Shown here: piece after piece, positions 3,353 to 62,200 of the stretch | How the letters are laid out: each line of letters begins with the position of its first letter | Position numbering within the stretch: position 1 is the stretch's first letter | Assembly: GCA_030448025.1 (NCBI GenBank) | Contig: JAUJNQ010000004.1 | Coordinates: 53,966-117,965 of the forward strand | Source: Acidimicrobiales bacterium | GTDB lineage: Bacteria > Actinomycetota > Acidimicrobiia > Acidimicrobiales > GCA-2861595 | Length of the DNA stretch: 64,000 bases | Direction: 5' to 3' | The notes under the pieces: generated by a model | The model's input: only the letters and a program-made list of their open reading frames with translations | The model's database searches: none | What the model was told of the DNA's origin: nothing | Translations under genes and position numbers: made by a program

Positions 3353-4186
3353 TCAGAGGACCGGCTGGGCGGTGCCCGTGGCAACCGCAGTGCTCGTGGC
3401 AACCGCAGTGCTCGGGTCGCCGCCGAAGGCGGGACAGAATGCCCGGAAGGCGCACCAGTCGCACAGGCGGGAGGGTCGGGGCCGGAAGTCTTCGCTGGCG
3501 CAGGCCCGCTCCACGGCGGTCCACACGGCCGAGGCTCGGCCCTCGAGTCCACGGATCGATTGGGGCGTAGGGACGCTCACGATGGCCAGGGGCTCACCCA
3601 GATGCAGCAGTTGGACCCGCGCCGGCCGGTGCCCCAGCGCCCGCTGGCAGAGGAAGGCATAGAACTGGACGCCGCCCATGCGGCTGTTCTCGAAGGGGAT
3701 GCCGGGCGCTCTCCCCGTCTTGTAGTCGGTGACCACCAGCTCACCGTCGGGATCGAGCTCGAGACGGTCGATGACGCCCCGCAGGCGCATGTCGCCGAGC
3801 TTGGCTTCGAGCATGAGCTCGATGCCCACGGCGCGGACCTGGTTCGGGTCCTCGAGCTCGAAGTAGTTGGTCACCAGGCGGGCAGCGTCGGCGCGGAACT
3901 CAGCCTCGCCGTCCTCGTCGAGATCAAGACCGGCGAGCTCGGGATGGGAGCGGAGGTCGCTCCATGCCAGGTCGAGCTGGTCCATGGCGGCTCCGGGGGT
4001 CCTCTGACCGGCGGGGACCTGGGAGAACAGGCGCTCGAGGGCCCGGTGCACCAGCGTGCCCTTCGACGCCGGTGGCGAAGGAGGCTCGGGGAGGTGGTCG
4101 ATGACCGAGTAGCGGAAGGCCAGGGCGCAGTCCTTGAACGAAGCGACCTTGGAAGGTGAGAGGGACCTCGGTAGCGGCAGGCTCAT
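3353..4186 (-). CDS. PD-(D/E)XK nuclease, RecB-family exonuclease-like
   Basis: LSPSKVASFKDCALAFRYS..., GTLVHRALE, GELVVTDYKTGR, C-terminal CDWCAFRAFCPA Cys cluster. Confidence 0.85.
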   Translation of the reverse strand: MSLPLPRSLSPSKVASFKDCALAFRYSVIDHLPEPPSPPASKGTLVHRALERLFSQVPAGQRTPGAAMDQLDLAWSDLRSHPELAGLDLDEDGEAEFRADAARLVTNYFELEDPNQVRAVGIELMLEAKLGDMRLRGVIDRLELDPDGELVVTDYKTGRAPGIPFENSRMGGVQFYAFLCQRALGHRPARVQLLHLGEPLAIVSVPTPQSIRGLEGRASAVWTAVERACASEDFRPRPSRLCDWCAFRAFCPAFGGDPSTAVATSTAVATGTAQPVL

Positions 4187-12636: not shown

Positions 12637-12727
12637 AAGTTTCAGCATCGGCACCGATCCGGCTTTGCCGTGTCGGTGCCGATTCCGCTGAGCTCGCCGA
12701 CCAAGCTTCGCTTGGGAGGCGAAACTT
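12637..12727. repeat. Nested inverted-repeat element, copy 1 (two hairpins inside AAGTTTC/GAAACTT arms)
   Basis: ATCGGCACCGA/TCGGTGCCGAT perfect 11-bp stem (12647-12657/12673-12683), then TCGCC-GA-CCAAGC-TTC-GCTTGG-GA-GGCGA (12694-12722). Confidence 0.8.
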
Positions 12728-13466
12728 ATGCTGCGGCGGGTTGTTTGAGCTTGACCTCGTGGTGACGCACTTTGGCCCACCGGAGGCGTTCGAGCATGCG
12801 CACCACCCACCACCCGGGGTCGAATTCCCCCCGATGCAGCGAGAAGCGAGCCGAGGTGGGAGCGGCGTGGTGGTTGTTGTGCAGGCCCTCACCCATCGTG
12901 ACCAACGCCAGCAGCTGGCTGTTGTGTGCGGTGTTGGACTGGGGCTGGATGCCGAAGTAGTGGCCCACGGCGTTCACCGCGGCATTGAGCAACAAGTACG
13001 TCACGGTGTGGATGCCGGCGGCGAGGAGCCCCGGCCAAAAGCCGAGGAAGAACACCATGACGGCGATCCCGATGGCCAGACCGGGGATGGCGTGGTCGAA
13101 GAACAGGCGATCCCACCGGTCGGTCGGCAGGTCCTTGGCATAGCGCCTCACCACAGCCTTGTCGGCGGCCACCCGGCGGTACAGCGCCACGTTGGCGAAC
13201 TGCACCATGGCGAAGCCCTCGAGAAGCGGCGAGTGGGGGTCGCCCTCCACGTCGGTGAAGGCATGGTGCTTGCGGTGCACCGCCACCCACTGGCGGGGTC
13301 GGATGCCCGTTGTCGTCCAGGTGAGGATGCGAAGGAGCCACATCAGCTTGGGGGACAGGGTGAGGGCTCGATGGGCCAGGGTGCGATGGAGGTACACCGT
13401 GGTCACGAGGGTGGCCAACTGGGCCACGGCCAGCCCGGCCATCACGGCGATGGCGACAGAAGTCAT
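12726..13466 (-). CDS. Acyl-CoA/fatty acid desaturase
   Basis: Histidine boxes [27 protein letters not shown]. Confidence 0.93.
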
Positions 13467-60906: not shown

Positions 60907-61452
60907 CTAGGCCCCTCCACCGGTGTGGGCCAGGCCACCCTCCGCCTGCCCAGCCGGACCACTTTGGGCAGGGCCTGAGTTGGGAGCCAGATCGTGGATG
61001 GCGGCGTCGAGCTCCTGCACCACCCCGGCCAGCGCCACGATGTTGAGCACGCCCTGGCCTCCTTGGAGCAGGTCGATGATCTCCTCGCCCGAGTGAGCCA
61101 GCACCGACTGGGCGCCGTTGAGCACCAGGTTGGCCGTGGCCACGTCCTCCCCGCTCTTGCGGAGCACCTCGATGGCCCGACGAGCCGACTGGAGGGAGAC
61201 GCCGGCGTCGAGTAGGCGCTTGATGACCTTGAGCTCCAGCAAGTCACGGTAGGAGTACCGGCGCTGCGTGCCACTGCCCCTGGCCTCGCTGATGGACGGC
61301 CGCAGGAGGTCGGTGCGAGCCCAGTAGTCGAGTTGGCGGTAGCTGATGCCCACGATGGAGCAGACCTGCGGACCCCGGTACCCCGCTTCGGGCACGCCTT
61401 CTGACCAGAGGCCTTCTTGTCGAAGCTCTCCTTGCCCAAGCTCTTCTTGCAT
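60907..61452 (-). CDS. MerR-family transcriptional regulator
   Basis: YRGPQVCSIVGISYRQLDYWARTDLLRPSISEARGSGTQRRYSYRDLLELKVIKRLLDAGVSL. Confidence 0.92.
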   Translation of the reverse strand: MQEELGQGELRQEGLWSEGVPEAGYRGPQVCSIVGISYRQLDYWARTDLLRPSISEARGSGTQRRYSYRDLLELKVIKRLLDAGVSLQSARRAIEVLRKSGEDVATANLVLNGAQSVLAHSGEEIIDLLQGGQGVLNIVALAGVVQELDAAIHDLAPNSGPAQSGPAGQAEGGLAHTGGGA

Positions 61453-61588
61453 CGTGGGGAAGTGCCTCCTTGTCGGTTGAACCAACCTGTCGGTGCAACC
61501 CATCGGTTCACACCGAAGGAATTACAACAGTGTGGACCAAGAGTACGACGGCCCTGTGGAAAGGTCAACGACCGGTGGTCAGGGCGGA

Positions 61589-61657
61589 GGGCGGTCCGGC
61601 TCTGCCGGCCGCCCGGAGCACGATTGGATTCGCCGAGCAAGCTTCGCTTGGAGGCGA
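61589..61657. repeat. Two-hairpin repeat element, copy 2
   Basis: GGGCGG-T-CCGGC-TCT-GCCGG-CCGCCC (61589-61614) followed by TCGCC-GAG-CAAGC-TTC-GCTTG-GA-GGCGA (61630-61657). Confidence 0.75.
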
Positions 61658-61687
61658 GTCACCCGAGGCGCTGTGCGCCGAGGGCGA

Positions 61688-62200
61688 CTACCCGCCGAAG
61701 TCCTCGGGGCGCACGCCCTCGATGAACTGGCGGAACTCCGACACCAGCTCCTCGGGCGCGGCCTCATCCTCCTCGTCGGTGTCCATCATCAGGCCGGCCT
61801 CGTCGAGGAGGTCCTCCTCGGCGTAGATGGGGCAGGAGATGCGGGCGGCCAGGGCGATGGCGTCCGACGGTCGACTGGACACGACCTGGGACTGCCCGCC
61901 GTAGCGGAGGTGGAGCTCGGCGTAGTAGGTGCCCCCCCTGCCGTCCTCCGACATGCGCAGCTCGGTGACCACTACCCGCTCGAGCACGACCCCGAGGGCG
62001 GTGAGGAGGTCTCGCATGAGGTCATGGGTCATGGGCCTGGAGGTGGGGACCTGCTGGTGGGCGTAGGCGATGGCCGTGGCCTCGGGGGGGCCGATGAAGA
62101 TCGGGAGGGTGCGCCGGGCGCCCTCCACCTCCTGGAGCAGCACCACCGGGTTGTTGGTCGGCAACTCGACTCGCACTGCGGCCAAACGCATCTCGACCAT
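61688..62200 (-). CDS. Bifunctional nuclease-family (DUF151) protein
   Basis: VVLLQEVEGARRTLPIFIGPPEATAIAYAHQQVPTSRPMTHDLMRDLL...SRPSDAIALAAR. Confidence 0.93.
   Translation of the reverse strand: MVEMRLAAVRVELPTNNPVVLLQEVEGARRTLPIFIGPPEATAIAYAHQQVPTSRPMTHDLMRDLLTALGVVLERVVVTELRMSEDGRGGTYYAELHLRYGGQSQVVSSRPSDAIALAARISCPIYAEEDLLDEAGLMMDTDEEDEAAPEELVSEFRQFIEGVRPEDFGG

Follow-up and report, generated by a model that had tools for sequence, protein, structure and literature searches.

A dispersed hairpin repeat behind stop codons in Acidimicrobiales genomes, probably a mobile REP-like element

The 64,000-nt stretch of an Acidimicrobiales contig analysed here (the window) carries, between a DUF151/bifunctional nuclease (BFN) gene and the gene of a MerR-family regulator, an element that consists of three hairpins recognised from sequence and predicted fold (Table 1). 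Hairpins 1 and 2 fold on either strand, and a covariance model built from both of them matches positions 61580–61658 (85.1 bits, E 3.7e-15 in the window). Hairpin 2, whose 3' internal loop is one base short, faces the DUF151 stop codon (61688–61690), which adjoins the element, and the third hairpin ends directly at this codon. Neither the third hairpin nor the orientation of hairpin 2 towards the stop codon was part of an earlier, sequence-only reading of this DNA, whose positions, letters and 15-nt spacing for the first two hairpins are correct upon re-reading. The region of the third hairpin (61655–61700) folds on the − strand with a z of −2.4, and its class of hairpin (class b, see below) is also found in copies L050, L054, L056, L057 and L126.

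Table 1. Features of the element and its surroundings in the window
Feature	Position	Strand	Description	Basis
Hairpin 1, window copy	61589..61614	+	GGGCGG-T-CCGGC-TCT-GCCGG-CCGCCC; 6-bp outer stem, bulged T61595, 5-bp inner stem, triloop TCT	Sequence, fold, model match
Linker, hairpins 1–2, window copy	61615..61629	+	15 nt, GGAGCACGATTGGAT; partly conserved among copies	
Hairpin 2, class a, window copy	61630..61657	+	TCGCCGAGCAAGCTTCGCTTGGAGGCGA; TCGCC-GAG-CAAGC-TTC-GCTTG-GA-GGCGA	Sequence, fold, family alignment
Third hairpin (hairpin-2 type, class b)	61659..61687	+	TCACCC-GA-GGCGC-TGT-GCGCC-GA-GGGCGA	Sequence, fold
DUF151/bifunctional nuclease (BFN) gene	61688..62200	−	PF02577, E 9.5e-36	ORF
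MerR-family regulator gene	60907..61503	−	Far side of the element; PF13411, E 7.9e-15	
Copy 1 of the element	12643..12723	+	83.5 bits, E 7.4e-15	Model match
Fatty acid desaturase gene beside copy 1	12726–13466	−	PF00487	

A gap of 2 nt separates another copy in the window (copy 1, L036) from the stop codon of the neighbouring fatty acid desaturase gene. As the sequence-only reading had it, hairpin 2 differs between the two copies by one substitution and one missing G, and hairpin 1 has an entirely different outer stem (ATCGGCACCGA/TCGGTGCCGAT in copy 1), with its CCGGCTYTGCCG core preserved. Positions 61500–61575, in front of the MerR gene, hold a promoter-like block (GTTGACC...GTACTCT; GTGTAATTnC...CACTGTGA) that is possibly the MerR promoter and operator. 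The block is kept in the orthologous loci of genomes G001, G003 and G005, even though the latter two lack the element there.

Both copies belong to a large family. The hairpin 2 pattern, with up to three mismatches allowed, gives 15 matches in the genome and none for a reversed control pattern. The genome-wide search that the sequence-only reading had proposed was carried out with the covariance model of hairpins 1 and 2 (R1), which finds 48 matches at E≤0.1 in the 2.7-Mb genome of the window (G000), 36 of them strong, full matches at E<1e-5. The spacing between hairpins 1 and 2 is almost constant, and about half of the copies carry an additional 5' hairpin 0 (CCGGCGGCCG...GCCGCCGAAGGCGGC...CGGCTGCCGG), so that the full unit, hairpin 0–hairpin 1–hairpin 2, is about 150–165 bp long. 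A lone hairpin elsewhere in the window (3417–3431, CGCCGCCGAAGGCGG) resembles the core of hairpin 0. Hairpin 2 comes in three classes: class a, TCGCC-GA-GCAAGC-TYY-GCTTGC-GA-GGCGA; class b, TCGCCC-GA-GGCGC-TYY-GCGCC-GA-GGGCGA; and class c, with alternating two-base stems and tandem GA mismatches. This last class was seen in a recently amplified subfamily of G003 (L196–L211, TCGACCGAATGGAGTGAGCGAAGCGAACGAATGAGGTCGA) and once in the genome of the window (L058). No Rfam family matches the element above its gathering score. One copy gives a weak match to the Actino-pnp RNA (RF01688, 32.5 bits), which is judged to be a chance match, being below the gathering score of 47.7, limited to one copy and outside any pnp context.

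Base pairing in the element is strongly supported. Among 95 distinct copies from the genome of the window and its relatives, aligned by fitting to the covariance model, which favours pairing, 95.8% of cells are paired and 21 of the 24 pairs show double changes; none of 500 shuffles reaches any of five measures, and sliding the partner by 1–3 columns leaves only 27–42% of cells paired. An unfitted MAFFT alignment of 13 copies is still 90.6% paired, and its 11 pairs with double changes were reached by none of 500 shuffles. In 13 orthologous pairs of copies, there are 35 compensated base pairs where shuffling predicts 5.2, and 21 broken pairs where 70.6 are expected. The repeated two-hairpin element with pair-preserving changes, proposed on the strength of two copies, is thus real, and both further copies and structural conservation in related genomes exist. 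The "selected structure" of that proposal is by itself an incomplete account. The copies form a dispersed mobile repeat family, and two copies can differ by compensatory changes simply through belonging to different sub-lineages. Covariation can also be imitated by the correction of palindromes in the DNA itself. One could therefore suppose that the repeat is real and that its compensatory changes stem from template switching during replication instead of structural selection. Many of the double changes are G-C to C-G flips within palindromes, which template switching can produce, and some copies (L038, L114) are now perfect palindromes. However, most copies have retained the GA/GA loop and the triloop uncorrected, often together with the bulged base, while the flanking pairs change. 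Palindrome correction could explain part of the covariation; as an account of the compensatory changes as a whole it appears rather unlikely.

The internal loop of hairpin 2 distinguishes the two strands. The GA/GA loop is kept exactly in 56 of the 95 copies, and in about 20 more it has one neighbouring inserted base. In 46 of the 56 exact copies, the loop reads pyrimidine-GA-purine on both sides, a context known for stable sheared G-A pairs. RNA energies give hairpin 2 the greater stability on the GA/GA strand in 82 of 95 copies, and class c folds with −12.4 kcal/mol on the GA strand and with −6.9 kcal/mol in the gene sense. In the usual orientation of the element, the GA/GA strand is antisense to the upstream gene. 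Since the mismatches thus lie on the strand opposite to the mRNA of the upstream gene, it is this strand asymmetry that favours a folded single-stranded DNA over an mRNA element.

The placement of the copies is strongly biased. With genes called by a codon-usage script rather than taken from curated annotation, the copies in G000 are intergenic. In 29 of 36, a gene whose transcription runs towards the element has its stop codon on the side of hairpin 2; for 19 of these 29 the distance to that stop is −2 to +8 nt, and in several of the others an additional hairpin 2 lies between the two. At co-directional sites of three genomes, a stop lies that close in 16 of 19, 13 of 16 and 11 of 11 cases (5.1, 3.2 and 3.0 expected under uniform placement in the same gaps). 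Of 25 co-directional copies, 20 have hairpin 2 on the side of the upstream gene. The types of stop codon next to the copies are mixed. A few copies contain the end of the upstream gene; in L027, L039 and L044 the coding sequence seemingly runs into the element, which would give element-encoded C-terminal tails. Many copies are within operons, with the next start codon 5–30 nt further on, and many are in essential ones (rplK-rplA, rpoC, rpsL-rpsG-fusA, sdhAB, atpHA).

GC-rich hairpins that follow stop codons immediately, in convergent gaps as well, look like intrinsic transcription terminators, but they lack a T-run (there are no sites with the terminator-like combination of hairpin and T-run in 61400–61800), their linkers are conserved, the unit is duplicated as a whole, and many copies sit inside operons just in front of the next start codon. 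Terminators are a most improbable explanation. A second possibility is a host-selected cis-acting RNA, in which the hairpins behind the stop codon would make the mRNA more stable, determine the relative output of neighbouring genes or halt ribosomes at termination. The position 0–8 nt behind stop codons, the orientation bias, the compensatory changes in orthologous copies and the many copies in essential operons all agree with such a role, and there is a precedent: in E. coli, REPs within 15 nt of the stop codon stall ribosomes (PMC12306157). This explanation is nevertheless unlikely, as the copies are spread over functionally unrelated genes and the mismatch-stabilised fold is antisense to the upstream gene, with class c being clearly weaker in the gene sense. 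Moreover, the sites are mostly not conserved between genera, and the orientation differs at some orthologous sites.

All five genomes of the same family carry the element (4–39 matches each). Within the order it also occurs in a minority of the other families, with at least seven further carriers in a set of 53 genomes. A class-wide sample of 148 genomes gave matches only in the genome of the window and in two already known carriers. Exact-pattern matches in named genomes are almost all in uncultured Actinomycetota/Acidimicrobiia MAGs. About 17 of the 24 copies in G001, a genome of the same genus, are at sites that are also occupied in G000, as expected for old insertions, but also for functional elements that have been kept. 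At these shared sites, the elements differ by ~20%, although the flanking proteins are mostly 80–97% identical. Compared to other genera, the sites are mostly empty. The sdhA/sdhB junction is TGATG in G001, G003 and G005 and contains the element in G000; rpsL/rpsG is empty in G003 (TAGGGATG) and G005, and atpH/atpA is empty in G003. The site in the window is filled in G001 and empty in G003 and G005. The DUF151/MerR position is one among dozens of insertion sites.

Many copies are incomplete or rearranged. Solo hairpins 2 and units with internal deletions represent remnants (L140, L142, L147), with solo hairpin 2 remnants of G001 at uppS/recO and at L147. The uppS/recO site also features an inverted pair (L037/L043), and L119 is a mosaic of the form hp1-hp2-hp1'. 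In-place inversion was considered for the orientation flips at orthologous sites and rejected: the mosaics L119 and L027 hold remnants of both orientations, so it is simpler to assume that an inverted pair has lost one of its arms. Recent copies are found in G003, where L135 and L139, flanked by unrelated genes, share a 153-bp unit with 93% identity (99% in a 77-nt core), and where a second subfamily of ~165 bp is represented by 16 near-identical fetched copies (L196–L211), most of which again end just before stop codons. In G000, no two copies are more than 90% identical, which suggests that mobility in this genome is old. Presence and absence at orthologous sites, the remnants and the near-identical copies at unrelated sites of G003 are best explained by mobility. 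The element is therefore most probably (with a probability of about 0.8) a non-autonomous mobile palindromic repeat that behaves like REP/BIME sequences.

REP/BIME repeats are the nearest model. Like them, the element is a short, GC-rich, extragenic palindrome with dozens of copies per genome (36–48 in G000), forms mosaics of inverted modules in alternating orientation (L037/L043; L119), has a conserved mid-stem mismatch and strand asymmetry, and lies near the 3' ends of ORFs in co-directional and convergent gaps, sometimes supplying the stop codon. REP copies are likewise found near the 3' ends of ORFs (PMC3733652), and the REP transposase binds one folded strand, with the E. coli system requiring a mid-stem mismatch and a GTAG tag (PMC8266576). 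Unlike REP/BIME, the element occurs in Actinomycetota, combines three dissimilar hairpins and tandem GA/GA mismatches in its unit, and has neither a general GTAG tag nor a Y1 transposase in the genomes that carry it. GTAG is found at 3 and 10 of 75 ends (about 4 by chance), and none of GTAG, CGTC and GGAG is general at the feet of the hairpins. The Y1 transposase domain (PF01797) was detected in 0 of 11 carrier genomes, including G003 with its recent amplification, while the controls were detected. A classical RAYT-type REP whose Y1 transposase gene has been missed or lost would account for the mid-stem mismatch, the strand-specific features, the inverted mosaics and the location at ORF 3' ends (PMC3733652, PMC8266576), and loss of the REPtron is known from many E. 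coli strains (PMC3733652). Given the outcome of the tag and enzyme searches and the atypical three-hairpin unit, this explanation does not seem likely, and the element is described here as REP-like, not as REP.

Other known repeats are more distant. CGTC-tagged REPs and Rickettsia palindromic elements are also palindromic repeats without a dedicated transposase, but the family described here has no fixed CGTC (11 and 8 of 75 ends) and is mostly extragenic, not within ORFs. Mycobacterial interspersed repetitive units (MIRUs) share with the element a mobile appearance, hosts in the Actinomycetota and a location at operon junctions with translational coupling. Their insertions are at start codons and include a coupled ORF (PMC12548453), whereas the present element places hairpins behind stop codons, requires no ORF and has no internal ORF coupled to a start codon; it was therefore not assigned to the MIRUs.

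In the most probable reading, the repeat spreads as a non-coding unit and lands a few bases behind stop codons, preferably with hairpin 2 towards the stop of the upstream gene, and the landed units then decay into partial units, solo hairpins, tandem arrays of hairpin 2 and inverted pairs. Copying would be carried out in trans by an enzyme. The strand with the GA/GA mismatches would supply the selected fold, most probably in the form of single-stranded DNA. Any effect on the mRNA would come second, be it intercistronic stabilisation or the braking of ribosomes close to the stop codon. A more specific version, in which the family propagates as folded single-stranded DNA held by stacked tandem GA mismatches, makes use of an enzyme that is not of the Y1/HUH type and is directed behind stop codons in one orientation, is conceivable and still doubtful. 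As the carrier genomes are mostly MAGs, an enzyme may be missing from them. Inspection by eye of empty/filled pairs of sites revealed no consistent terminal inverted repeat or target-site duplication, the two marks of a MITE. Retro-copying by a reverse transcriptase is not favoured, because PF00078, present in G000, G001 and G005, is absent from G003, which has the clearest recent copies; it is also absent from G012 and G029. The single reverse transcriptase gene of G000 (L213, PF00078) is located at C4:471225-471872.

The usual explanation for REP-type repeats is a RAYT transposase that acts on hairpins with a GTAG tag. In the lineage studied here neither was found, yet it has a repeat family with just as much structure and with recent amplification, so bacterial palindromes may have another route of spreading. 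Insertions behind stop codons, in essential operons and at former TGATG junctions amount to natural experiments on the separation of coupled genes. For uncultured Acidimicrobiia, the element represents a missing annotation class.
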